In this document: piece after piece, positions 3,651 to 15,432 of the stretch
Numbering within the stretch: the stretch's first letter is position 1
Layout: every line of letters starts with the position of its first letter
Source of the DNA: Hyphomicrobiales bacterium
GTDB taxonomy: Bacteria; Pseudomonadota; Alphaproteobacteria; Rhizobiales; Rhizobiaceae
Length of the DNA: 64,000 bases
Assembly: GCA_900471925.1 (NCBI GenBank)
Contig: UCGV01000017.1
Coordinates: forward strand, 1-64,000
Direction of reading: 5' to 3'
Notes under the pieces: model-generated
What the model was told of the DNA's origin: nothing
Seen by the model: only the letters and a program-made list of their open reading frames with translations
The model's database searches: none
Translations under genes and position numbers: made by a program

Positions 3651-4865
3651 CTAGACTGCTTGACGCAGCATGCCACCACTGTTGCGGAGCAGCGCCATGA
3701 TTACCGGGCCGAGAGAAAACTCACCCCGATCGGCGCGCCGCGTCAGATCACGCAGATATCCACCTGGCGAATTGATCAGATTTGCGCGCTCAAGGATGCA
3801 ACCGACCGCCACTGCGGCATTTTCCGGTCCCATGACCTCGCACGCATCTTGGTAAGCGGTTGGGCTGATCCCCAGCATCGATCTCACCACCACCGCGGCC
3901 GACATGAGGTCGCGCCAGCTTCCGACCGCCCCGCCCGGTCCATAGTCAACCATCTGCTGACAGGCCTTAAGCACCACACCAAGAGGGAAAGACTTCATCG
4001 GCTCCACCCTTGGCTTGTCGGGTTTGCTCGACTTCGCGCCCTGCTCTTTTTCAGAGCTAGGTTCAACTTCATATGTGGATTCGGGATTTGAATTCTGTAT
4101 GTGCTGCCCAAATCGAGCATCATTGGTGCTATTGAATTGCGAATTCTGTTGATTGTCCAACTGATTAATGATTTCGTCCCGAAGAAGCTCCATTTCATCC
4201 AGAACCCCCGCTACGTCGTTCATGGCTGGAGAACGAGGGATGCGGGCAACGAGTTCGACATAGATCGCTTCAATGGCTGCCCAGTCGCCCTCGGCTCCCT
4301 CCTCCATTGCTGCCGAAATTAGCTTGCGAACGTCACGGCGGCAGATCGTCAGGTTCTCCTTGGCTTTCCGGAAAGCGGAACGCGCGGCAACGACCTTCTG
4401 AGCGATGAGCGCCAGTTCTTCGGATCGGGCGAGCATTGGCGAGAGATCAAAGCCGAAGGCATTCTCGATTTCACCGGCATTATTCTTACGCGCGAAGCGT
4501 TTGCCGTTCGCGCTGTCTTTCCGAACGATCAGCCCGGATTCCACCAGTAATGCAAGGTGACGGCGAAGTGTTGCTCCAGCCATGCCATGGGCACGCAGGA
4601 TCAATTGTGCGTTCGACGGAAACACTACCAACTGTGCTTCCTGGCGCAATTCGTTCTCCGGGTAGAAACTCAGCAGCGCGTCGAGCACAGCAAGACTGCT
4701 CGACTGCAGGCCGAGCGCTTCCCTGGCCTCAGAAGCGTCCCGAAAGACCTTCCACTTGTCGACCGATTTGCCGGCCTTGATTTCGGCCGCAGCGACCTGT
4801 CGCCTCACGAGAGCAAGCGTCATCGGCCGCCGCCCAAAGGGCGTCGTCACACTTCCAGTCTGCAT
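3651..4865 (-). CDS. repC: plasmid replication initiator RepC
   Basis: A protein of 404 residues, close to the usual 400-440 for RepC. The N-terminus (MQTGSVTTPFGRRPMTLALV) is characteristic, followed by a winged-helix-like domain (GMAGATLRRHLALLVESGLIVRKDSANGK split over residues 95-125) and the conserved C-terminal block GISPTAYQDACEVMG and GGYLRDLTRRADRGEF. RepC is the initiator of repABC plasmids, and the origin normally lies inside the repC coding sequence, so the origin is probably here. It is the last gene of the leftward repA-repB-repC operon and is separated from repB by the antisense RNA region. Confidence 0.95.
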   Translation of the reverse strand: MQTGSVTTPFGRRPMTLALVRRQVAAAEIKAGKSVDKWKVFRDASEAREALGLQSSSLAVLDALLSFYPENELRQEAQLVVFPSNAQLILRAHGMAGATLRRHLALLVESGLIVRKDSANGKRFARKNNAGEIENAFGFDLSPMLARSEELALIAQKVVAARSAFRKAKENLTICRRDVRKLISAAMEEGAEGDWAAIEAIYVELVARIPRSPAMNDVAGVLDEMELLRDEIINQLDNQQNSQFNSTNDARFGQHIQNSNPESTYEVEPSSEKEQGAKSSKPDKPRVEPMKSFPLGVVLKACQQMVDYGPGGAVGSWRDLMSAAVVVRSMLGISPTAYQDACEVMGPENAAVAVGCILERANLINSPGGYLRDLTRRADRGEFSLGPVIMALLRNSGGMLRQAV

Positions 4866-4924
4866 TGTCTTTCACCTTTCAAAAGGCAAAAGAAATCAGC
4901 TCACCAAATCGGTGCCAAAGACTC

Positions 4925-5016
4925 TTGACGAATATTCGTGGAAGTGCGATTCTCAGGTTGCTTAGATCTGAAAGAGGTTTCCACGACGGCGACGTTTTGG
5001 GGGCCTTTTTCTTTTT
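4925..5016 (+). ncRNA. antisense countertranscribed RNA (incA-type) between repB and repC, with its promoter
   Basis: The 155-base repB-repC gap carries a rightward promoter, opposite to repC: TTGACG at 4925-4930, a 17-base spacer, and GATTCT at 4948-4953. A transcript from about 4960 would end in the T-rich run at 5006-5016 after a hairpin pairing GAAAGAGG (4970-4977) with CCTTTTTC (5004-5011, one G-U pair). That gives an RNA of about 55 nt, the usual size of the repABC ctRNA that represses repC and sets copy number and incompatibility. Exact ends are inferred. Confidence 0.65.
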
Positions 5017-5020
5017 CCGC

Positions 5021-6064
5021 TTAATCTCCGTTATCAGTTTGCTCTAGAGCGCCGCCCTTGGAGCGATGCTCCTCGAAAAGCGCTGGCAATCGTTCGAGAA
5101 CGAAAGCCGCGAAATCAGGCATCTCGCGTAGATCGATCGAGAGGTCCAACTTGGTTTTGCTCTTCGTCACCTGGGCTAGACGCACGCCCGTGGGCGTCGT
5201 CAAAAGCTCTGGAAGTCCACGCTTTACCGGCTCAGGCTTGAGGCGCGCGACAAGCACCTTAAACCGCTCGGGGGAGGGCAGGGCTTTCGCCTCCGCCGAT
5301 CGCAAGAAGACAGATGCTTGTTCAAGGTCGCTGTCACGCCTCAGTAGATCGGCGAGACCTACCCAGCTCTTCAAGCCGACCCCGGGGGCCGAGCCGATCG
5401 CGTCGATAACTTCCGCGGGGATGCGCGTCACGACCGAGAGCATGTTCGACAGGTCGCTTTTGTAAATGGACAAAGCGGCCATCACCACATCTCTCGCAAA
5501 CTGCTCGTTCAGCCGAGAGGCGAAGCGCGCCTTTTCGATAAACGTGAGGTCTTGGCGTTCATTGTTTTCCTGGCCCTGGGCAATGACGAGCTGCTCGTCA
5601 GTTAAGTCCCTGACGACCGCCTTGACGGGACGGTTCAGTTCCGTGACCGCACGAAGTCGACGGTGCCCGAATGCCACCTGGTACCGCCCCGGCGCTTCGG
5701 GGTGAGGGCGCACGAGGATTGGGATCTGCTGACCTTGCTCACGGATTGCTTCAACGAGACCCTCGATATCACCGGGCATACGGTCCTGAACGAACGAGGG
5801 ATCGATCGTATCGGTGTTGAGCTCGATGATGGTTTGGCCTTCAGCCAGGCGCCTTTCAATTTCTTCGGCACGCTCAAAACGCGCCTTTCCTTCTGCGAAA
5901 GCGCCGCCAACCTGGCTCGTGAGACGCGACGATGCCGGCATTGGCCCTTCCGCTGGGGCTGTACCGAGGAGTGGGAGAATGCTCCGGCTCTTAACCGGTC
6001 TTTCAACCGGCGCACCGACGGCACCAGTTGGTGTCTGGGCGCGGAGGATATCTTTCCTGCTCAT
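5021..6064 (-). CDS. repB: plasmid partition protein RepB (ParB family)
   Basis: About 347 residues. The ParB core is visible: QGQQIPILVRPHPEAPGRYQVAFGHRRLRA around residues 110-140 (the ParB/Srx nucleotide-binding box with GHRRLRA), then the helix-turn-helix that binds parS. I place the start at the ATG at 6064 because its first bases overlap the repA stop as ATGA, the usual coupling in repABC operons; an ATG at 6079 would overlap repA by 19 bases. RepB binds the parS palindromes near repC and works with the RepA ATPase in segregation. Confidence 0.95.
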   Translation of the reverse strand: MSRKDILRAQTPTGAVGAPVERPVKSRSILPLLGTAPAEGPMPASSRLTSQVGGAFAEGKARFERAEEIERRLAEGQTIIELNTDTIDPSFVQDRMPGDIEGLVEAIREQGQQIPILVRPHPEAPGRYQVAFGHRRLRAVTELNRPVKAVVRDLTDEQLVIAQGQENNERQDLTFIEKARFASRLNEQFARDVVMAALSIYKSDLSNMLSVVTRIPAEVIDAIGSAPGVGLKSWVGLADLLRRDSDLEQASVFLRSAEAKALPSPERFKVLVARLKPEPVKRGLPELLTTPTGVRLAQVTKSKTKLDLSIDLREMPDFAAFVLERLPALFEEHRSKGGALEQTDNGD

Positions 6065-7272
6065 GGTTTTCTTCCCCATGCTTTCTTAATCAGCGACTCG
6101 ATCTCATCGTTGACGTTGTTCATCGCCTCCAACGCGCGATCGTAGGTAGCGCGGGTGAACTGGCCTCTTTCAACTTCGAAAAGTGTCTGGTTCGTCAGGC
6201 CTGCATCCGAGACGGCTGTCGTCTTTAGCATAGGGAAGTTCAGGACATTTTCCCCGAAAATAGCCCGCAGATAGCCGACCATCTGGTTCTGCGGCCCGTC
6301 ACTTGGCTCGAAACGAGTCACGAGATAGCGCATCCAGTTATAATCGAAGCGCGCGCCGTGGGAAGAGATCTCCCGAAGCAGGTCCGACGTCATCGACAGG
6401 AACTGGTTCATCGACATTACGTCGAGCATCTGCGGATGCACGGTGATCAAAACAGACGTTGCTGCGGTCAGCGCAGACAGGGTCAGGTAGCCGAGCTGTG
6501 GTGGGCAGTCGATCACCACGACGTCGTAATTGGGTGCCACCTGGTCAAGCACCTCGCTGATCCGATGGAAGAACATCGTATCGCCGATCTTCCGCTTCAT
6601 CAGTGCCCGCGGGGTGTCGTGTTCGAACTCCATCAGTTCCAGATTGCCTGGGATCAGATGAAGGTCGGGAATGTAGGTCGCCCGAACGATTTCGCCCATT
6701 GGACGGGCGTCGTCGTAGCGTATCGCACCGTAAAGCGTCTCATTTGCACCAACATCCGTCTCGGGTTGGTTACCAAAGAGCGTCGACAGGCTAGCCTGGG
6801 GGTCAAGATCGATGGCGAGCACGCGGTAGCCCCGAAGGGCAAGATACTGGGCGAGGTGGGCAGCCGTGGTCGTCTTGCCGGACCCACCCTTGAAATTCAT
6901 GACAGAGATGATCTGCAGGGCCTCGTCGTCACGGCGGTGGGGAAGATAGCGGCGATTTCCGCGTCCAACCTGGTCGAGATGCTTGCGGATCTTGTGCATG
7001 TCCTCGACGGAATACGACCGGCGTCCGGTGGGACTGGTGCTGACCTGAAGGTCCTCAACCTCATTTGCGAGCTGACGAAGGTACACTTCCTTGACGCCAA
7101 CCAGCTTTGCTGCTTCCGCCGGCTGAAACGTCCGGATCCCCTTTTCCGCCGTGGGGGGAAAAGTTGCCAGTTGATGCTCTTGCAGTTGCGCCGACAACGA
7201 ACGAGAATGGCGCTCAATCAAGCCCATCAGGTCTTCGTCTTTTGGCGGTAATTTTGCAGCGATTTTGGGCAT
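6061..7272 (-). CDS. repA: plasmid partition ATPase RepA (ParA family)
   Basis: A 403-residue ParA/MinD-type ATPase with the deviant Walker A KGGSGKTT at residues 128-135, preceded by an N-terminal MerR-like helix-turn-helix (KLVGVKEVYLRQLANEVEDLQ) used for autoregulation. Other ParA motifs follow: IDLDPQASLSTLFG and VVIDCPPQLGYLTLSAL. It drives segregation together with RepB and normally represses its own promoter. It is the first gene of the leftward operon, and the promoter must lie in the roughly 350 bases to its right. Confidence 0.96.
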   Translation of the reverse strand: MPKIAAKLPPKDEDLMGLIERHSRSLSAQLQEHQLATFPPTAEKGIRTFQPAEAAKLVGVKEVYLRQLANEVEDLQVSTSPTGRRSYSVEDMHKIRKHLDQVGRGNRRYLPHRRDDEALQIISVMNFKGGSGKTTTAAHLAQYLALRGYRVLAIDLDPQASLSTLFGNQPETDVGANETLYGAIRYDDARPMGEIVRATYIPDLHLIPGNLELMEFEHDTPRALMKRKIGDTMFFHRISEVLDQVAPNYDVVVIDCPPQLGYLTLSALTAATSVLITVHPQMLDVMSMNQFLSMTSDLLREISSHGARFDYNWMRYLVTRFEPSDGPQNQMVGYLRAIFGENVLNFPMLKTTAVSDAGLTNQTLFEVERGQFTRATYDRALEAMNNVNDEIESLIKKAWGRKP

Positions 7273-7640
7273 CCCCGGACCTGATTTCTTAAAATAGCGC
7301 TTGCTAGCGGAAATTGCTAATCACTCCGCTGCTGACAATAAGCATCGATTCTAACAGGCTGGCAAGCTATTTAGGGTTAACAAAACCTTAACGCGGTAAC
7401 CTGGGAATGATGTCGCACCTCGGGTATGTTCTTTACAAACAGAGCGTTAAAGCCGTTTCTCAAGCGATAGCAGCTCTAATCCATCAACTGGAATCTTCGC
7501 TCACCGAGCCGGTGCAAATGAAAGGTCAGCCGTGGGATCGCTAAAGGCGGCGCATTGGGGTGCCAGTGTTTGCGACTCAGTCAACAGCGACGCGCAATGG
7601 GAAGCACGCGGTATGGTGAGTGCATTTTCCCACCTATGGG
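7273..7640. promoter_or_regulatory. repA upstream region
   Basis: About 370 bases upstream of repA with no gene. It must contain the repABC operon promoter and RepA operator. I see A/T-rich stretches and partial symmetry around GGGTTAACAAAACCTTAACG (7373-7392), but no clear match to a sigma-70 promoter that I would defend, so no boxes are assigned. Confidence 0.4.
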
Positions 7641-7976
7641 CGCCTTCACCTATTCCGGCGTGTGACCATTCCGCGACATCGATTTTGGCGTGAGATGATG
7701 GCGGCGGCGATTACGCTCCGGTCGAAGTTGGGCGTCAGCCCGTCGGCTTACGAGGACGCTTGCGAGGTGATGGGCCAAACGGGAGCGGCATTTGCGATCG
7801 CCTGCATCTACGACGGGGCAGGGCATATCACTACGGCGGGAGGTTATCTTCGAGATCTTACGGCGAAGGCGCGGCGCGGGGAGTTTTTGCTTAGGCCGAT
7901 GCTGTTTGCGTTAGCTGAGAGAAAATCCCGGTCTGGTCAGCGCGTCTGCGTAAGTGGGGATATTTTTAACCTCTAG
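7640..7976 (+). pseudogene. remnant of a second repC (C-terminal part only)
   Basis: An open frame here translates to a stretch closely similar to the C-terminus of the intact RepC in this window: FWREMMAAAITLRSKLGVSP, AYEDACEVMGQTGAAFAIAC and GGYLRDLTAKARRGEF correspond to SWRDLMSAAVVVRSMLGISP, AYQDACEVMGPENAAVAVGC and GGYLRDLTRRADRGEF. The N-terminal three quarters of RepC, including the initiation domain, is absent and the frame upstream is not RepC-like. It lies on the opposite strand and beyond the far end of the repABC operon, so it is likely a scar of plasmid co-integration or recombination between repABC replicons. Confidence 0.8.
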
Positions 7977-8080
7977 GCGCTAACCGTCTGAAGGAACGTA
8001 ATAATTCTGACTAGCTTCCGGCTGGCAACTCCCGCACCGTACCTCCAAACTTAAAAATCTCAAGGAGCGTTGAGTCTCAA

Positions 8081-9013
8081 ATGTTCATCACCAAGCCCCT
8101 AACGCCTGTTGAGGTACTAGCGGAGCTCCTTCAGAAGCGACCTGTAGCAATTGGCGAGACAAAGGCGTTCAAGTCTCTGCGGCATAATAAGCATCTTTGC
8201 CGTGCTTTTCGCGATAAAGTACGTTCAGTGCTCGAAGTCTACCGGGCATATCGCGCGGATTGTCAAGATATACAAGGAATGAGCGATCAAGGGATCGACG
8301 TGCTGTTACGTTATCAAATTGATATTGACGGCCTTGAAAAACGACAACTTGTTGGCCTGCAGCTCAAGAGCTACGCGGAGTTCGCTAACTACAAGTCCGG
8401 TAAAGATCCAGATTTCATCGGAAGGCTAAAAAATCAATATGCAGCCGCGACTCAAAGCGTGCGCGTCGATCATTTTTACCTAGTTCTCTGTACCGATGCC
8501 AGCGTACACGAAAGCGAGATACGGACAATCACTTCGGAACTCAAGGGATGGGATGGGCTCTCTATCATCACGCCAGAACAGGCGCTTTCTTTTTATGAAA
8601 TGTCGGAGGTAGACATTGAGACTAGTGTCATCCGTTCGATTTGCGGAAACGATCCCGTCCTCGTCGAAGCAAAGCGTTTTTTCAGGGATATGTCTGATTT
8701 CGAGTCCTACGCTCTGATCCAATTGCTCTGCAACGTCCACGCCGGCGAAAAGCTCATTACACCCGGCGAGTTCAGTGAGCTCCATGACAAATGGAATGAG
8801 ATCGACGGTTTTGGATCTGACGATCTCGGCACTGTGATCGAGGACTTTGAGACAAGTGGCTATCTAGAATACACTGGCCAGAACTACGAGATCGTGGCAG
8901 AGAAGATGCCGACGGTGCTAAGTGCGATCTACTTTGATATCCGTACCCGGCGCGATATTACTAGCGATATGGCTGCTGACTATCTCTGGCAACTGTTGGG
9001 ACTTGATGAATAA
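8081..9013 (+). CDS. restriction-endonuclease-like protein of unknown function
   Basis: A 310-residue protein not recognised by name. Around residues 65-100 it reads GIDVLLRYQIDI and then VGLQLKSYAEF, a D...QxK pattern that fits the catalytic core of the PD-(D/E)XK nuclease fold (with Q in place of D/E), as in Mrr-like enzymes. The rest is acidic and helical, with a winged-helix-like C-terminal part (residues 200-290). It has lower GC and more A/T-ending codons than the rep genes, suggesting recent acquisition. It stands alone between the repC remnant and the lysozyme-caspase cluster. Defence function is an inference. Confidence 0.5.
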   Translation: MFITKPLTPVEVLAELLQKRPVAIGETKAFKSLRHNKHLCRAFRDKVRSVLEVYRAYRADCQDIQGMSDQGIDVLLRYQIDIDGLEKRQLVGLQLKSYAEFANYKSGKDPDFIGRLKNQYAAATQSVRVDHFYLVLCTDASVHESEIRTITSELKGWDGLSIITPEQALSFYEMSEVDIETSVIRSICGNDPVLVEAKRFFRDMSDFESYALIQLLCNVHAGEKLITPGEFSELHDKWNEIDGFGSDDLGTVIEDFETSGYLEYTGQNYEIVAEKMPTVLSAIYFDIRTRRDITSDMAADYLWQLLGLDE

Positions 9014-9202
9014 CCGGCATCGCGGCGAACCTTAACCATCACACCCGCCTGATTGTATCGCGTCTTACAGGTCAGTTGCGATAGAGGGGAGGAACGCAAG
9101 ATATCGGGGCGGTGAGAGGACCACTGTCGCTTTTGGATTCAACGATTTCTAAAGTCCTGAGCGCGCCATCGAGCCCAGAAGCGGGAGGAGTCTTATGGTT
9201 AA

Positions 9203-10282
9203 TCAGTTCTTAAGATTGAAAAGACGCTCGTAATCGGTGCGAGCCAAAGGCAACCAGTTCATGTCGACGTCCTTTGAGATCTTCTTACCCGAACAGACAA
9301 AAACCGCCTCTGGCAGCGATCCATTCTCTGAGAATTGCCAGTAGTGACCGATACTGTACTCATCCCCATAAGCCGCACCGTAAGGTAGCGGTGGCATCGA
9401 CCATTTGGGGCTGCCACCTTGTACTGTCCAATTCTTGTCGTAAACAGGACCGCTATTATTGTATCTCGAGTTCCAAATTGCTTGCTCCTGGGCCAATTTC
9501 TTTCCATCAACTCCGAGGACTTGGTCCCACCATGCCCTTGAATTCGTGTAGATCACAACAGGCTTGCCGGTCTCAGCAGATACCTTGGCGATCCAACGCT
9601 TGGCGAGGTCGATAATCTGGTCGGAAGACATGGTGTACCACATGTCACAGAAATATCGACCGGAGCTGTCCTTGGTGAGCCGCGTTTTCGGACAAGCCTT
9701 GAACTCTTTCGTCCCGGGAGCGACCCTTTTGTTAGACCACTCGATGTCCACAATGGGCGATAGCTGTTGGCTTGTCTTGCCCCCGAAATCATCTAGGGCC
9801 GCCAAGAATGTATCGGCCTGCTTTTCCGCGCTGATTCCGGGCCGTAAGAAGTGATAGGCGCCGCGGTAAAGTTTACCGGTCTCATGCAATGGCTTTAGTT
9901 CCGTCCAGATCTTTCCGAAAGAAAGGTCCCGGCCGGCACCGTCGGAAGCCTTTGTCATGACGTAAACCAGCGGAAACGTCGTCATTGTATTCCAATCGAC
10001 CGAGCAGGAGCACTTTGGCGTGTCATATCCCGACTGTGTTCTGCAGGCGGGATCACGGTCCAGATCAACTGAATAGTGAGATAGATCAACTCCGAACGAG
10101 CCCCCAAATTTTTTCTGTTCACTTGGTGCAAATATGTAAGACGATCGGAGTTGAAAGGGCGTGCCAAGCCAAAATGGCCTGATCAGACGCGGATCGACCT
10201 CGTCTTGTGACTCCTGCGCTACCGCCCAGGTTCCGAGGCTTAGAATTGCTATGAGGCAGACCGAAAATAACGACACCCGCAT
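9203..10282 (-). CDS. secreted GH25 family lysozyme-like muramidase
   Basis: About 359 residues with a clear Sec signal peptide (MRVSLFSVCLIAILSL, cleavage near AVA-QES). The GH25 signature is present: FGVDLSHYS with the catalytic-type Asp near residue 66, and PIVDIEWSN with the Asp/Glu pair near 179-181, plus YRGAYHFLRPG and the YTNSRAWW strand. GH25 enzymes cleave the MurNAc-GlcNAc bond of peptidoglycan. An insert with cysteines (residues 81-94) between strands one and two is unusual. The ATG at 10282 has GGGGGGA just upstream and is preferred over a TTG at 10294. It is divergent from the collagen-like/caspase/trypsin/CHAP genes and probably belongs to the same exported system. Confidence 0.85.
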   Translation of the reverse strand: MRVSLFSVCLIAILSLGTWAVAQESQDEVDPRLIRPFWLGTPFQLRSSYIFAPSEQKKFGGSFGVDLSHYSVDLDRDPACRTQSGYDTPKCSCSVDWNTMTTFPLVYVMTKASDGAGRDLSFGKIWTELKPLHETGKLYRGAYHFLRPGISAEKQADTFLAALDDFGGKTSQQLSPIVDIEWSNKRVAPGTKEFKACPKTRLTKDSSGRYFCDMWYTMSSDQIIDLAKRWIAKVSAETGKPVVIYTNSRAWWDQVLGVDGKKLAQEQAIWNSRYNNSGPVYDKNWTVQGGSPKWSMPPLPYGAAYGDEYSIGHYWQFSENGSLPEAVFVCSGKKISKDVDMNWLPLARTDYERLFNLKN

Positions 10283-10529
10283 TTTTCCCCCCAATGCGAT
10301 ATAAGGTAGAGATGGAAGCTGTTATTGAGCCACGCGTCTGAAATATTTGGTAGTGGAACAGTACCACTCAAATCTATGTCACGTTCTGAAGCAAGCCTCT
10401 CGGTTGAACTTTTGTTCTCTCAAACTCTTGACGTAACTGAAAAACCGCACAAAACTCCTCGTCACTATACAAATTGACCCCGTTGGCTTGGCGCGCGAGT
10501 TTTTTTCGGATTGGTATAGGAAAACCTAC
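10283..10529. promoter_or_regulatory. divergent promoter region between the GH25 and collagen-like genes
   Basis: About 250 A/T-rich bases between two divergently transcribed exported-protein genes. It should carry both promoters. A TTGACG at 10430-10435 is a possible rightward -35 box, but I see no convincing -10 partner, so no site is fixed. Confidence 0.4.
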
Positions 10530-11531
10530 GTGAAAATTACTGCATCAGTTTTGATTTCTTTAATACTATTGGTTTCCGGAAAGGCATCCGGAGAAAATCT
10601 TAGCCCCAATTCAGTCACGGCCGCAGATGTATACGGGCAGCTGCAGAAAGCAGTAGATCTAACAAAGCTCCGACTGCGTGAATACCGGGTTCAGGGAACT
10701 ACTCCTCTTCGGTCAAGCTCGCTGGCCACTCGAAAACTTATCTTCGAACCAGGTTCAACGCTGTTCATCCCCGATGATCTTCTAGACAGTCCAATCTATC
10801 TGCTCGCCGACGAGATCGAATTGCAAGGCGACGCGAATATCGCCTGGGGCAAACGCGACGAGACGATGCCCCCTCCTTCGCGCCTAAAGGCACCCGACGG
10901 TGTCTGGGGAAGGGGTGAAGGAGCCAATGGCACGGATGGCGCACCGGGGCAGGCTGGAAATGTGGGATTTCCGGGCCGCTCTGGGCCAAGCTTGATTATC
11001 TTTGCAAAGAAAATCGGTCCGACCCCTGGGCACCTTAAGATTGATCTTTCGGGCGAAGCCGGCGGACCTGGCGGGCGGGGTCAAGATGGCGGACGCGGCG
11101 GCGATGGCGCTAGAGGTGTATCCGCATCGCAAAGCTTGTTCGACTGCAAACGAGGCCCAGGCGCCGGCGGAAATGGTGGAAATGGCGGAGACGGTGGGCC
11201 GGCGGGGCCGGGAGGCAGCGGTGGAGCCGGCGGTGATCTTCTCTTGGTTGGCCTCGAACCTGACGATGTCACGAAACTCCAAGTGACGTCCGAGGGTGGC
11301 AAGGGCGGCCCGCGAGGAGAGGTCGGAGCGCCGGGCCAACCTGGCGCTGGTGGCAGCGAGGGAGAGTTAGCACTGCCGTATTGCGGGTCCGCGCACAGGC
11401 TCGGGCAGCCTGGACGCCCCGGCAGCCCTAGCAGGGAGCAGAGTGCCGACGGTGTCGCCGGTCCCGACGGGCGATTGCAAGTCGTAGCGCCCGACGATCC
11501 GGTAATAGATGCTATTTTTGGGCCGAATTAA
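10530..11531 (+). CDS. exported collagen-like glycine-rich protein
   Basis: About 334 residues from the GTG at 10530, which gives a clean signal peptide (ITASVLISLILLVSGKASG); a TTG at 10488 would add 14 residues. After a beta-rich segment (residues 30-110: RKLIFEPGSTLFIPDDLL, IYLLADEIELQG) come long runs of Gly-X-Y-like repeats, such as GTDGAPGQAGNVGFPGRSGP, and poly-Gly-rich loops (GAGGNGGNGGDGGPAGPGGSGG). Such triple-helix or Gly-loop segments usually form extracellular rods or protease-resistant spacers. It abuts the caspase gene (stop at 11531, next start at 11532), so the two are co-translated. Function unknown; possibly a scaffold or substrate of the neighbouring proteases. Confidence 0.7.
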   Translation: MKITASVLISLILLVSGKASGENLSPNSVTAADVYGQLQKAVDLTKLRLREYRVQGTTPLRSSSLATRKLIFEPGSTLFIPDDLLDSPIYLLADEIELQGDANIAWGKRDETMPPPSRLKAPDGVWGRGEGANGTDGAPGQAGNVGFPGRSGPSLIIFAKKIGPTPGHLKIDLSGEAGGPGGRGQDGGRGGDGARGVSASQSLFDCKRGPGAGGNGGNGGDGGPAGPGGSGGAGGDLLLVGLEPDDVTKLQVTSEGGKGGPRGEVGAPGQPGAGGSEGELALPYCGSAHRLGQPGRPGSPSREQSADGVAGPDGRLQVVAPDDPVIDAIFGPN

Positions 11532-12560
11532 ATGGAAGCCCTCCGCTCAGCGAGATCTGCAATTGGCGTCGTTGCGATTTTCCTGAGTTTGACGATGTAT
11601 TTGCCTGCAACGGCCACCTCGCCAACAAACGAGGACCTCTCAAAAGCCGAGGAATTTCCTGTCCGGAAGCTCGCCCTCGTGATCGGCAATAGGGACTATA
11701 AGTACCTTCCGCGACTTGAAACAGGTGTCAGCGACGCTGAATTGATCAGCAAACGTCTTGCATCATTGCAGTTTGACGTAGTGGTTCGAACAAACATAGA
11801 ATACGACGACATAATTCGTGAATTCAAAGATCTTCGGAATCGAGCAATCCAGGCAGAAAGCCACGGTGTTCGTCCACTGGCGGTATTTTATTTCTCAGGC
11901 CACGGCTTCGTTACCTCCAGCAGGCAATTCATTACTGCCATTGACACACCTTCATCCGGGGCAGATGCGATACTGACGCGCAGCGCCGCAATTGCGACGC
12001 TCACCGATGATGTCGCGTCAAGGGCATTTCTGGTTTCGCTTATCGATGCCTGTCGATCGGATCTGGGACTGGGACGTTCTTCTGGCGCAGGCAGAGTATC
12101 CGATACCATCGATTACCCGACAGCGGCTTCCGCAAATGCCGGGCTCGGCTCCCAGCGGAACGACCAGCCGGACAATAACGATCAGAGGTATCTTCTCGGC
12201 TTTGCTAACAAACTTGGCGAGCCGGTTGTAGGATCAGTCTCTTGGAACGACAAGAATAGTCCCTATACCACGTTCCTCGACCAGCATATCGGGAGCGGCT
12301 TCGATGTGGAGCACGATCTCGACTCAACCGGAGATAGTCTACATGATCTCCTTCCAACCTATAGTCCTGAATTCGTCTCGTCTCTCCGAGGCAACGTCTT
12401 TCTGGATTTTCCACCGGCGACGCTGACTGCAATGCACTCGGAATGGACGAAAGCGATACAAAATCCGACCGAACGGACAATGGCAGAGTTCCGGCGGAGC
12501 TATTTGAACGGCCCGTTGGCCTATAAGGCGGACGAATGGATCAAGGCCCTCCAAAACTGA
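11532..12560 (+). CDS. exported caspase-fold (C14) peptidase
   Basis: A 342-residue protein with an N-terminal hydrophobic signal (residues 8-30) and then a caspase p20 domain: RKLALVIGNRDYKYLPRL, the catalytic His in YFSGHGF (His124) and the catalytic Cys in LIDACRSD (Cys174). Prokaryotic relatives (metacaspase or orthocaspase type) usually cut after Arg or Lys. The region after residue 190 looks like the p10 part and a helical tail. Bacterial caspases in defence systems are normally cytosolic, so a signal sequence on this one is unusual. It starts one base after the collagen-like gene and overlaps the trypsin gene by 25 bases, a tight operon. Confidence 0.85.
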   Translation: MEALRSARSAIGVVAIFLSLTMYLPATATSPTNEDLSKAEEFPVRKLALVIGNRDYKYLPRLETGVSDAELISKRLASLQFDVVVRTNIEYDDIIREFKDLRNRAIQAESHGVRPLAVFYFSGHGFVTSSRQFITAIDTPSSGADAILTRSAAIATLTDDVASRAFLVSLIDACRSDLGLGRSSGAGRVSDTIDYPTAASANAGLGSQRNDQPDNNDQRYLLGFANKLGEPVVGSVSWNDKNSPYTTFLDQHIGSGFDVEHDLDSTGDSLHDLLPTYSPEFVSSLRGNVFLDFPPATLTAMHSEWTKAIQNPTERTMAEFRRSYLNGPLAYKADEWIKALQN

Positions 12561-13399
12561 TCGTTTTGATGTTGATGATACTGTTCTCGGCGGCGGGTGC
12601 GGCGTTTCCTCAATCGCCCAAACCCCTCGAGTTCGAGGCAGCGCAGAAACATTGGCTTGCGCGAGATCAAGACAATAGGAAGGTCGTCGGCGGTGTAGCT
12701 GCCTCTGAAGCCGATCACAAATGGCAAGTCGGATTGCTAAGATCGAGTATTCCCGACGACTACTATGCTCTTTATTGTTCTGGATCGCTTGTAGGCCCCA
12801 ACATCGTGCTGAGCGCTGCTCACTGTCTGTTAAATCTTGAACCGAGTGAAATCAGCGTTCTAGTGGGGGCGAGCAAGTTGGATGGTAGTGGCGTTCGTGT
12901 CGGCGTTGAAAAAATTGAGTTGAACCCGGCGTATGACATAAACAAGCTGGATGCGGATATAGCACGGGTAACGTTGAAAGAGGACGTTACTGCTCCCGCA
13001 ATTCGCGTCGCTAGCGAAGCCGACGAAACCCGTGAATTTAAGGCAAACAATAGCTTATCCGTTTCCGGCTGGGGCGTATTCGACACACAACTGGATCAAA
13101 AGAGCTCGCAATTACTCGAGACTAGCGTTCCTTTTCAGCCAAGAAAGCTCTGCAATAGTGCGGAATCCTACGACAACATGATCACGCCGAACATGTTTTG
13201 CGCAGGTTATTTGGCAGGGGGCTCGGATGCCTGCACATTCGACAGCGGCGGACCGATCACCGTGGGAACTGGGAAGAAGCGTAAACTTATCGGAATTGTG
13301 AGTTTCGGTGAAGACTGCGGAAAGCCGAAAAAATTCGGGGTTTATACGCGTGTTGTCCCTTTCAGAAATTGGGCTCTCGCGCAAACGGCAGCGAAATAG
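12536..13399 (+). CDS. exported trypsin-like serine protease, zymogen form
   Basis: A 287-residue S1-family protease. Signal peptide: residues 8-23 (LIVLMLMILFSAAGAA). A short pro-region ends in DNRK-VVGGV (Lys49/Val50), the classic trypsinogen activation site. Catalytic triad: His96 (SAAHC), Asp141 (DADIA), Ser237 (DSGGP). The S1-pocket Asp is present (Asp231), predicting Arg/Lys specificity. In the sequence DACTFDSGGP, the oxyanion-hole Gly (chymotrypsin 193) is replaced by Phe, which could lower activity or require activation. It overlaps the caspase stop. A caspase that cuts after Lys/Arg could activate it; this is inferred. Confidence 0.9.
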   Translation: MDQGPPKLIVLMLMILFSAAGAAFPQSPKPLEFEAAQKHWLARDQDNRKVVGGVAASEADHKWQVGLLRSSIPDDYYALYCSGSLVGPNIVLSAAHCLLNLEPSEISVLVGASKLDGSGVRVGVEKIELNPAYDINKLDADIARVTLKEDVTAPAIRVASEADETREFKANNSLSVSGWGVFDTQLDQKSSQLLETSVPFQPRKLCNSAESYDNMITPNMFCAGYLAGGSDACTFDSGGPITVGTGKKRKLIGIVSFGEDCGKPKKFGVYTRVVPFRNWALAQTAAK

Positions 13400-13429
13400 G
13401 TGCCGGTCGTTCGGCAGTAGGAGGAGAAA

Positions 13430-14143
13430 TTGATCACACGTCGGGCTGCAATAATCGGTGCACTTTTGTTTCCGAGCACATTGGCGCTCGCTGATGGCGG
13501 CGACAACGAATACCGTGAATATGCTTTCGAGGATTATTTTTCTCGTTTTTTGCGAGGGAGGGATCCAAGCGTGGCGCAAGACATCAAACAGGCGGAATCC
13601 ATAGCCGCTTCAATGCCCAAGGATAGTCCTTATCACATCATGCAGGAACTTTCGAAAATCTCCGAAAGGGGATCGACGGGTGAAGCATTCAACACGCGTT
13701 GGAAACGGATCGCCAACCCGCTGATCGTGTTGTTTTTCCACGATATCGGCTACAAGAAGACACCATATCCAGGTGATTGCACGCCGTGGTGCGCGGCCAC
13801 CGTATCCTGGTGTTTGCAGCGCGCCGGAAAGAAAATTGCAAAAGATCCGGCGTCGTCCCAGAGTTATTTGAAGTACGGGCTCCCAGTTGCGAAACCCCAG
13901 ATTGGCGATCTTTGCGTTTTCACGGATGTCGGAAATCCGAGCAATGGCCACGTGGGTTTCTTCGTCAGTGCTACAGAAGAAAACGTCACCATAATTGGCG
14001 GCAATCAGTCCGGACAATCGACCACGAACTGTGGCCCTGGTTACCGGCAGAGCATCGTCAACGTCACAGAGTTGCCAATCAATAAAAAGCGCGATCGATC
14101 GGTGGGTGTGCATTATTTGGCCACTATAAGGCGGCCGGCCTAG
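13430..14143 (+). CDS. exported CHAP-type peptidoglycan amidase/endopeptidase
   Basis: A 237-residue protein starting at a TTG with a strong GGAGGAG ribosome site. The N-terminus (MITRRAAIIGALLFPSTLALA) is a signal peptide, with twin Arg suggesting possible Tat export. The C-terminal half is a CHAP/NlpC-P60-like domain: TPWCAATVSWCLQ with catalytic Cys121, and NGHVGFFV with catalytic His174, then IIGGNQSGQS. Such enzymes cleave peptide stems or amide bonds in peptidoglycan. It is the last gene of the collagen-caspase-trypsin unit. With the divergent GH25 enzyme the cluster has both a glycan-cutting and a peptide-cutting activity. Confidence 0.85.
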   Translation: MITRRAAIIGALLFPSTLALADGGDNEYREYAFEDYFSRFLRGRDPSVAQDIKQAESIAASMPKDSPYHIMQELSKISERGSTGEAFNTRWKRIANPLIVLFFHDIGYKKTPYPGDCTPWCAATVSWCLQRAGKKIAKDPASSQSYLKYGLPVAKPQIGDLCVFTDVGNPSNGHVGFFVSATEENVTIIGGNQSGQSTTNCGPGYRQSIVNVTELPINKKRDRSVGVHYLATIRRPA

Positions 14144-14201
14144 CGTATGCTTCTTTGAACGCAGTCTTAAAACGACCTACGGAAGCTTGGCAACTCGATC
14201 G

Positions 14202-15350
14202 CTACAGCATGCGCGCTGCGCGTCCGCTGCGCCGCGTCGCATCATTATAGTAACTCGAGGCCTGCTGTACAGACCGATGGCGCGACTGTTCCATCGCTTC
14301 GGGTAGCGGAATACCGCGGTTGGCGGCCTCTGTCAGATAGCCTGACCGTAAGCCGTGTGCCGAATACTCCCCAACATCCAACCCAGCCAGTTCCACCCGC
14401 TGCTTGATGATCGCGTTGACCGACTGCGGATCGATTGCCCGTTTCGAAACCGTCCCCCATCGCCCGATCGCCCGAAACACACTGCCATTGTCGATCTTAG
14501 CAGCCTGCAACCAGGCGATGAGCGCCTCTACCGGCCGACCGGTCAGATAGACGATATCGTCCTGCTCGCCGGTGGTGGTTTTGGTACGGCCGAGATGGAT
14601 GGCGAGAGAGGGGAGGGGAGGGCCGTCCGGCACCTCGATCGGCGGCTCTACGGTCAGCTGTTCGCGGCGCAGCCCGGCAATCTCGCTGCGCCGGCGGCCA
14701 CCGGAGGCAAAGGCGACCATCAGGATCGCCCGGTCACGCAGATCGCGCAGACTGTCGGTCGCGCATGTCGCCAGCAGTTTTGCCAGCACGTCACCGGTGA
14801 CCGCCTTGGCGCTCTTGCGAAGACGTTGTCTTGGCGCGGCTCGGATCGCCAGCCGAATGGCTGATTTAAGGGCAGGCGAGGCGAAGGCGCCGTCGAAACC
14901 GCGCCATTTGCTCAGGGTCGACCAGTTCGCCAACCGCCGGCGTACCGTCGCCGGTGCGTGCGGGCCGACGGATCTGAGGATTCCTTGGCTACGCAAGTTT
15001 TCGTCGACGTCGACCGGCATGCCGTGATCGGGATCGGTCTCCCGCCGCCGCGGGTCCCAAAGGTGATGGGCGACGAATTTCAGCAGCAGCGCCTCGGGTG
15101 CCGGCCAAGGGAGAGAGTGCCGGGTTACGGCCAAGCTCCAGGCTTCGAGATAGGCGAGATCCGAGGTCAGCGCGCGCAGTGTATTGTCGCCCATGCCCTG
15201 GTTGACGAGATGGCGCAGCGTTTCGACATCTTGGTCTGTCAGAAGCTCGGCCAATTCGTCGCGGCGCTCCAACGGCAGCACGGCGGCAATGGTGTCGAGT
15301 TCTTCGGCGCGTCGCTCGACGGCGGTGAGTGGTGTCTTGGGTTTGGCCAC
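14202..15350 (-). CDS. tyrosine recombinase (phage-type integrase)
   Basis: A 382-residue site-specific recombinase. The N-terminal SAM-like core-binding domain spans about residues 50-170; the catalytic domain contains the first Arg in ASGGRRRSEIAGLR, then HGLR in EYSAHGLRSGYLTEAA, and SRHRSVQQASSYY with the nucleophile Tyr near residue 368. Length and layout match plasmid and genomic-island integrases of rhizobia. It faces away from the defence island that follows and might have inserted the neighbouring DNA. The inverted repeat at 15433-15465 lies just upstream and could be an operator or core site. Confidence 0.92.
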   Translation of the reverse strand: MAKPKTPLTAVERRAEELDTIAAVLPLERRDELAELLTDQDVETLRHLVNQGMGDNTLRALTSDLAYLEAWSLAVTRHSLPWPAPEALLLKFVAHHLWDPRRRETDPDHGMPVDVDENLRSQGILRSVGPHAPATVRRRLANWSTLSKWRGFDGAFASPALKSAIRLAIRAAPRQRLRKSAKAVTGDVLAKLLATCATDSLRDLRDRAILMVAFASGGRRRSEIAGLRREQLTVEPPIEVPDGPPLPSLAIHLGRTKTTTGEQDDIVYLTGRPVEALIAWLQAAKIDNGSVFRAIGRWGTVSKRAIDPQSVNAIIKQRVELAGLDVGEYSAHGLRSGYLTEAANRGIPLPEAMEQSRHRSVQQASSYYNDATRRSGRAARML

Positions 15351-15432
15351 TGACGCTCCAAAAACGCGGTTTTCAGCGGCCTCTGAGACCGTGATTTGCC
15401 CCGATTCTTTCTGATTTGCGACTCCGGATCAA

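Follow-up and report, generated by a model that had tools for sequence, protein, structure and literature searches.

What do five neighboring genes for peptidases and cell-wall hydrolases, each with a plausible export signal, do together? The question is raised by positions 9,203 to 14,143 of a stretch of 64,000 nucleotides from a Hyphomicrobiales bacterium of the Rhizobiaceae (assembly GCA_900471925.1, contig UCGV01000017.1, positions 1 to 64,000), hereafter the window. A first-pass annotation, made from the letters alone, had read this cluster as a GH25 lysozyme, a collagen-like protein, a caspase, a trypsin zymogen and a CHAP amidase that jointly open the wall of the cell itself, as a suicide defence, or of rivals. 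Our analysis points to a smaller unit, the pairing of one wall hydrolase with one peptidase, which, as predicted from gene neighborhoods, is well supported. The recurring pairs, some of which lie by anti-virus genes, suggest an undescribed device for envelope self-destruction or defence.

The five genes and their export signals

The five open reading frames (ORFs) lie where the first-pass annotation had placed them: on the ORF map, four plus-strand genes abut, overlap or stand 30 bp apart, and the GH25 gene is divergent. The catalytic residues it named were also correct, those of GH25 in the numbering from ATG. The GH25 muramidase gene (9203..10282, minus strand; Pfam PF01183 Glyco_hydro_25, 2.5e-15, 57.7 bits vs a cut-off of 27) has an ATG start at 10282, and the longest ORF (9203-10294) opens with TTG at 10294; D66, D179 and E181 bear these numbers when counted from the ATG, four codons inside the ORF. 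Its relatives in the PDB by sequence are 1jfx and 2wag. A divergent intergenic region (10295..10487 on the ORF map), in which a consensus scan gave no sigma-70-like site, separates the GH25 gene from the four-gene operon.

The operon opens with the gene of an exported Gly-rich protein (10488..11531, plus strand; start TTG 10488 or GTG 10530) with a beta-rich N-terminal part, which matched no Pfam family. Glycine reaches 45% in this protein, in agreement with the term collagen-like, but the longest G-X-Y run comprises only 8 triplets, so the term is loose. Its structure model was unusable due to low confidence (mean pLDDT 48.5), and the fold matches obtained with VIA-align (top match a phage tailspike, Z 6.9) were discounted, as the tool rates such matches common. 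The next gene, abutting it (TAA/ATG), encodes an exported caspase-family C14 peptidase (11532..12560, plus strand; Pfam PF00656 Peptidase_C14, 8e-19, 68.7 bits vs 21.4) with a p20 domain and the dyad His124/Cys174, whose closest solved sequence is the paracaspase MALT1 (6e-5). Overlapping the caspase gene by 25 bp is that of an exported trypsin-family S1 zymogen (12536..13399, plus strand; Pfam PF00089 Trypsin, 3.1e-47, 161.7 bits vs 20.6). The triad His96/Asp141/Ser237 is present, and a putative activation site RK|VVGG occupies residues 48-53, the alignment with enteropeptidase beginning at VVGG. Asp occupies the presumed specificity position, and Phe stands at the place of the Gly193 of nearly all trypsins (CTFDSGGP).

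The CHAP wall hydrolase gene (13430..14143, plus strand; Pfam PF05257, 9.8e-9, 36 bits vs 26) follows 30 bp after the trypsin gene; it starts with TTG and has a site of the AGGAGG type. The protein is TIGR02594-like and falls just under the curated cut-off of that family (68.5 bits vs 70.55, a close outlier), and Cys121/His174 are invariant across a 10-row family alignment. In the structure model (pLDDT 71.9), the N-terminal region is helical at about residues 44-105. A fold search of this model against the PDB gave nothing at E <= 0.001 (top E 1.1e-2); the best of the weak matches are NlpC/P60/CHAP wall hydrolases, and the MepS-NlpI-Prc structure 8xud is among the weak matches.

A plausible export signal was found on each of the five proteins, in agreement with the first-pass annotation. 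Four of the five passed a home-made signal score; the trypsin missed it, and its leader MDQGPPKLIVLMLMILFSAAGA was accepted by eye as an export signal. The GH25 protein carries a Sec-type signal, while the signal of the CHAP protein is of the twin-arginine (Tat) type (MITRRAAIIGALLFPSTLALA), a point absent from the first reading of the cluster.

Peptidase neighbors of the wall hydrolases

Conservation of the whole five-gene set, on which the earlier proposal depended, was not observed: the exact quintet was not met again in plasmids or in 148 genomes of the genus. Megablast of positions 8000-14300 against plasmids gave no match to the cluster. Among the genus genomes, the caspase was matched at 1e-10 in 13, all remote except the window itself, and GH25 at 1e-8 in three including the window, with no close relative beyond it. 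A DNA search of 7300-15400 in the same genomes, scoring two candidates per genome, reached other genomes only over the integrase part among the matches listed; since a search of this scope cannot by itself exclude the cluster elsewhere, its absence from the other genus genomes rests on the protein searches. The Gly-rich protein had no match among plasmids; besides the window's genome, four of the 397 searched in the order have a relative of it, only one of which (locus L044) had a hydrolase/peptidase seed match near the Gly-rich gene; there, the relative stands two genes from a CHAP gene. Because the quintet was found once and pairs many times, the recurring unit is the pair.

Relatives of the CHAP protein were collected from scans of an 84,980-species collection (best 80 of 152), the 397 order genomes and the 148 genus genomes, and sorted by profile; eight of the 25 plasmid CHAP records were taken for the neighborhood study. 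Of 33 full-length matches, L069 was dropped as a copy of L061 (without peptidase), and L079 and L125 were shifted to the control. The remaining 30 non-redundant proteins share a full-length architecture, namely an N-terminal region with a W...NP.I..FF motif followed by the CHAP domain. As a control we used 68 relatives from the 84,980-species scan (L078-L148) that share the catalytic domain or little more, after dropping the second match of L129. A twin arginine followed by a hydrophobic stretch was present in 28 of the 30 family members vs 2 of the 68 control CHAP proteins, and the RR was kept in 10/10 rows of the family alignment. By its signal, the CHAP protein thus qualifies as a predicted Tat substrate, and we refer to the family as Tat-CHAP.

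Genes on the same strand within 300 bp were taken as neighbors; 26 of the 30 family members and 54 of the 68 controls had at least one. A peptidase neighbor was found at 20 of the 30 Tat-CHAP loci, belonging to the S1 family at 13, to C14 at four and to CHAT at three, and catalytic motifs were found, by eye or by pattern, in all 20 peptidases. With Pfam (1e-3), the 36 neighbors at the 26 loci gave Trypsin_2 (10), Trypsin (9), Peptidase_C14 (4) and CHAT (2), the overlapping Trypsin_2 and Trypsin matches making 11 S1 loci together with the window. L063 and L074 were counted as S1 from triad motifs seen by eye and a home-made profile (1.8e-5 and 3.8e-4, respectively, in a small set) and not from Pfam. 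Likewise counted were a CHAT gene lying one gene away (L076) and a CHAT match under the Pfam cut-off (L073), and at L071 an overlapping S1 ORF was substituted for the automatically called 199-aa ORF. In the control, searches with peptidase seeds and with profiles for S1 and C14 hit none of the 82 same-strand neighbors at the 54 loci. The Pfam matches listed for these neighbors (25 of 66 families) include no trypsin, C14 or CHAT family with at least two members, which leaves room for one hidden control member each of Trypsin, Trypsin_2, C14 and CHAT. Depending on these control bounds, Fisher tests of the pairing gave 8e-8 to 3e-11, values to be read with the related loci not being independent.

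The origin of the loci also bears on these counts. Loci from scans made before any neighbors were seen had a peptidase in 12 of 20 cases (8/9 in the 84,980-species collection, 3/10 in the genus and 1/1 in the order), and the ten seed loci (the window, L044 and L058-L065), some of which were chosen because a match looked interesting, in eight. When the 30 CHAP proteins were placed in a maximum-likelihood tree, members with the same class of partner tended to group together (8 changes vs a shuffled mean of 15.4). The class is nevertheless not fixed: the starred branches force at least three S1 label changes and at least two CHAT changes, and within a clade of support 95/94 one CHAT partner stands among two S1 partners; the window CHAP is a long branch of unsure placement. 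Such an interchange of unrelated peptidases is expected if their common task is cutting the hydrolase or a common target.

The ten Tat-CHAP members with no peptidase neighbor comprise six of a stand-alone rhizobial clade, two with a cyclase-AAA-TPR partner and two with neither. The stand-alone clade (L210, L211, L212, L214, L215 and L216) may differ in role. At L061 (3898-6762) and L208 (4189-7092), a cyclase-AAA-TPR (STAND-like) protein precedes the Tat-CHAP gene in place of a peptidase; this arrangement occurs in a Sinorhizobium plasmid, in a contig of a Sinorhizobium metagenome-assembled genome (L069) and in a 4-Mb contig of the window's genus. Besides, in Achromobacter (L070, 2994-8768), a CHAT protein of 1,925 aa is encoded 17 bp upstream of the Tat-CHAP gene.

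Relatives of each hydrolase were recurrently paired or fused with a peptidase, mostly one bearing an export signal. Downstream of the GH25 gene, a caspase-GH25 protein follows at 5/5 plasmid relatives of the window GH25. In L055, Pfam places C14 at residues 79-278 and GH25 at residues 410-591; the fusion proteins of L066, L068 and L224 resemble both parts, and in L067 the caspase-GH25 is split into two overlapping ORFs. This rule comprises five records, of which L055 and L068 are 90% identical and the others about 35%, with L067 and L224 coming from one strain.

A third hydrolase family is a lysozyme akin to phage lysozyme and pesticin, sampled from five of nine plasmid records (the four weakest left out) and the genomes of L044, L217 and L318. 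Six of these eight loci have a peptidase neighbor, and the same six lysozymes have an N-terminal twin-arginine motif; neither is present at L223, which lies among phage genes, or at L220, whose lysozyme is joined to what looks by eye like an NlpC/P60-like part. The partners are a caspase (L217), S1 peptidases (L044, L219 with a 4-bp overlap, L318 and L221) and a CHAT protein (L222, matched in the second ORF downstream). At L221, the S1 gene is divergent, about 450 bp off, and was recognized from the profile (6e-5) and its motifs; this S1 protein (4255-5289) has its own twin-arginine-like signal SRGSRRTMLKELSAIALTFGG, and the protease may here be a Tat substrate too. The layout of L217, with CHAP and caspase and, divergently, lysozyme and caspase, resembles that of the window, and L044 has in a row lysozyme, S1, Gly-rich, Ig-like (by eye), CHAP and S1 genes. 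The earlier suggestion that exported proteases and wall hydrolases act together is consistent with these recurring pairs (CHAP 20/30, GH25 5/5, lysozyme 6/8), but it did not stand for a five-gene unit.

Other combinations of peptidases also occur on rhizobial plasmids. The plasmid of Rhizobium leguminosarum CB782 (L054, 2321-12102) has an operon of a caspase, a trypsin-containing 'peptidase C14', a 'serine protease inhibitor' and a Ser/Thr kinase. An operon of a protease plus protease inhibition is mentioned for four Rhizobium strains in a metacaspase survey (Asplund-Samuelsson et al. 2012, PMC3501461).

Plasmid site and mobile or defence surroundings

The window is the start of a 207-kb contig in a 7.2-Mb genome. 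It holds repABC (RepA at 6061-7272) plus an Rfam S-element and ctRNA, and the replicon is therefore a rhizobial-type plasmid. Between repA and an integrase gene lies an accessory insertion (7273..14201; 6,930 bp) that contains the cluster. The same gap measures 410 bp in Rhizobium indicum pPR13E04, with which the shared backbone is 88% identical where aligned, indicating that the cluster sits within an insertion at a cargo site. The GH25, caspase, trypsin and CHAP genes have a G+C content of 51-53% vs 56.3% for the window. The integrase, a tyrosine recombinase (14202..15350, minus strand; PF00589, 4.4e-14), forms the insertion border and belongs to the backbone, outside the mechanism discussed below; its relatives occur in many genus genomes, mostly at 67-86% DNA identity.

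Two further genes lie within the insertion. A RepC-type C-terminal fragment (7620-7976, plus strand; RP-C_C, 6.8e-29), near the intact repABC, may have been left behind by another plasmid or by the insertion event. An XopAX-like/DUF4365 protein (8081-9013, plus strand), scoring 174 bits vs the 350 cut-off of that type III effector family, could be unrelated cargo or a defence gene. In Rhizobium ruizarguesonis pRL10 (L055), the GH25/caspase-GH25 unit likewise lies about 10 kb or less from repABC, and a cargo site near the plasmid replication genes that is common to both is possible.

Some relatives of the pairs lie near defence genes, the named matches coming from ten proteins of interest picked by hand. 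Two of the pairs lie in islands: that of Ensifer adhaerens Lc04 (L074, CHAP-S1) adjoins full-length GajA and GajB (Gabija), and that of L209 (CHAP-caspase) has an MzaC-like gene about 4 kb away on one side and DRT6 plus a GajB-like gene on the other. A type IIG restriction enzyme (restriction-modification) is near L065, and a DUF262 protein is about 3 kb from L064. PADLOC gave 185 families for 120 of the 155 neighbor genes (21 loci) vs 46 for 120 of the 520 control genes, a small count that is suggestive only, the control being taxonomically unmatched and largely from other phyla; of the 25 PADLOC matches listed, most repeat two helicases and two methylases through redundant models. None of the five proteins is a clear PADLOC member: the scan yielded only low scores, 18.2 bits for a caspase model and 8 bits for Avs1b, and against NF047832 (EACC1-associated caspase systems) the caspase scored 29.2 bits, under the cut-off of 140.

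The six-gene cluster of L044 lies within a prophage with 43 flanking genes including terminase, portal, major head, tail sheath, primase and anti-repressor, and the same genes occur on an IMG/VR contig (L230). The tail-sheath gene and most genes on that side run on one strand, the module on the other. With the L060 protein as query, 265 of 50,697 phage records matched, none with at least 80% coverage, and among the 15 matches listed the coverage was 46% of the protein, that is, its catalytic part. As no phage record covers 80% of the protein, the Tat-CHAP family is no usual phage lysin. The placement of some relatives by defence genes and in a prophage makes the suicide defence first proposed more likely, as far as gene context can indicate.

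A candidate envelope device, its rivals and known systems

Our preferred reading is that the cluster is a mobile, envelope-sited lethal device of protease/wall-hydrolase pairs, in which the peptidases control the hydrolases; we hold it tentatively, at a little under an even chance. The wider proposal is that Proteobacteria carry mobile envelope death devices in which an interchangeable exported peptidase (trypsin, caspase or CHAT) sets off, through proteolysis, an exported hydrolase (Tat-CHAP, Tat lysozyme or GH25), the window being a compound caspase-trypsin cascade over two hydrolases; it is possible, but we regard it with more doubt. Activation rather than inhibition, the trigger and the defence role are parts that we infer.

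In such a device, the CHAP enzyme would cross the membrane folded, via Tat, and either its conserved N-terminal region or a partner would keep it inactive. Cleavage at RK|VVGG, whether autocatalytic or by the caspase, would switch on the trypsin zymogen, giving a caspase-trypsin cascade in the periplasm; these two routes are proposed because orthocaspases cleave after Arg or Lys (PMC6426788) and because the trypsin has Asp at its presumed specificity position. The cascade might start with an envelope disturbance, e.g., phage entry, conjugation or attack, upon which the proteases would free the CHAP and GH25 hydrolases, the wall would fail and the cell would lyse before an invader could profit. 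The Gly-rich protein is perhaps a binding or scaffold part. If true, programmed bacterial death would move into the periplasm, as a counterpart of cytosolic caspase/effector immunity, and this might help account for the many caspase genes of unexplained use in rhizobia. A Tat-CHAP plus a peptidase would also provide a simple two-gene module for asking whether a bacterial caspase fires a wall hydrolase.

Several points weigh against this reading. The exact quintet is known from the window's genome alone, ten of the 30 Tat-CHAP members are without a peptidase neighbor, the defence context is suggestive only, and nothing in the window could be identified as a trigger, sensor or inhibitor. Phe for Gly193 near the trypsin catalytic serine could reduce activity; mesotrypsin, changed otherwise at that position, withstands inhibitors. 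The CHAP model informs on the fold only, so that occlusion of the active site by the N-terminal region would be conjecture. Finally, the pairing would equally allow a peptidase that destroys the hydrolase, and destruction is the precedent set by MepS-NlpI-Prc.

The chief rival builds on this last point and sees the exported peptidases as brakes that break down the wall hydrolases or keep them in check, in a wall-remodelling or antitoxin-like control unit. Any protease-substrate relation would fit the gene pairing, and the MepS-NlpI-Prc complex is among the weak fold matches of the CHAP model (E 0.02). Such a brake seems unlikely, as the partner peptidases change among unrelated classes, caspase-GH25 fusions would be odd for an enzyme and its destroyer, and several loci are mobile or near defence genes rather than housekeeping. 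Housekeeping wall turnover was also considered, and rejected. The release of a protein cocktail on rivals, or the periplasmic digestion of an invader such as Bdellovibrio, which we also judge unlikely, would explain why several lytic activities with export signals stand together and why a pesticin/T4-lysozyme-like third hydrolase family is found in relatives; however, no outer-membrane secretion or immunity gene is present among the five cluster and five neighboring proteins scanned, genes farther off not being included.

A prophage-derived lysis or superinfection-exclusion module, since spread to plasmids and chromosomes, would agree with the prophage position of the six-gene relative and with a CHAP catalytic domain common to phage tail lysozymes. 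We consider it quite improbable, given that none of the 265 matching phage records covers 80% of the L060 protein and that the strand opposite to the tail-sheath gene is frequent for cargo. The rhizobial plasmid (repABC) and the frequency of metacaspases in rhizobia (PMC3501461) might point to symbiosis factors, secreted enzymes whose targets would be plant proteins or the bacteroid wall, but pair relatives in Achromobacter, Bosea, Roseiarcus, Azospirillum, Methylobacterium, Paracoccus and a Pseudomonas putida plasmid have no single nodulating life style, which leaves this explanation very unlikely. Least credible is a chance neighborhood of unrelated secreted enzymes: the exact quintet was indeed found once, but pairs and fusions recur, the pairing with the Fisher values given above, related loci not being independent, and chance was rejected together with housekeeping turnover.

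In MepS-NlpI-Prc, a periplasmic peptidase controls an NlpC/P60-type wall hydrolase by degrading it. The likeness to the cluster would be the control of a wall hydrolase by a periplasmic peptidase; unlike that housekeeping, chromosomal system, the cluster is mobile and involves several peptidase classes and hydrolases. In bacterial gasdermin systems, a caspase-clan peptidase releases a toxic effector. To our knowledge, switches of the Csx29 and gasdermin type and other protease-effector immunity switches act in the cytosol, whereas the parts described here bear export signals and the effector would attack peptidoglycan. CRISPR Csx29 (PMC10028731) is likewise a caspase-clan peptidase that acts on a partner protein in defence.

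Like prokaryotic metacaspases and orthocaspases, the caspase of the window has the C14 fold and the His/Cys dyad. The metacaspase survey lists 46 sequences with possible signal peptides, reports four metacaspase-Amidase_2 fusions and an operon that includes an amidase, and proposes a cell-death role (PMC3501461). Export, which the first-pass annotation regarded as the novel point, is thus not entirely new, metacaspases with possible signal peptides and fused to amidases being already listed there. The hydrolases here belong to other families (CHAP, GH25 and T4/pesticin-type lysozyme), and the passages of the survey that were examined mention neither a conserved pairing in which trypsin or CHAT can take the place of the caspase, nor Tat export, nor placement by defence genes.

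A further comparison is with the NucA-trypsin conflict systems (System 3 of Kaur et al. 2020, PMC7159879), which are mostly alphaproteobacterial. There, a trypsin-like peptidase is proposed to fire the effector via a proteolytic cascade, and the EAD1-linked effectors include domains of the lysozyme or papain-like peptidoglycan peptidase kind. Unlike these systems, the window's five proteins are without a NucA nuclease or NTPase; Pfam gave no nuclease domain in the five cluster and five neighboring proteins, and its scan of the five proteins gave no EAD match, the presence of an EAD1 model in that Pfam copy being unchecked. Here, the wall hydrolases are core partners that bear export signals themselves, and S1, C14 and CHAT peptidases are interchangeable. 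Among the matches listed by full-text searches of open-licence PMC papers, no description was found of exported CHAP, GH25 or lysozyme proteins paired with interchangeable exported peptidases. Overall, we class the cluster with the protease-effector conflict systems, in which the exported hydrolase/peptidase pairing is what is new.

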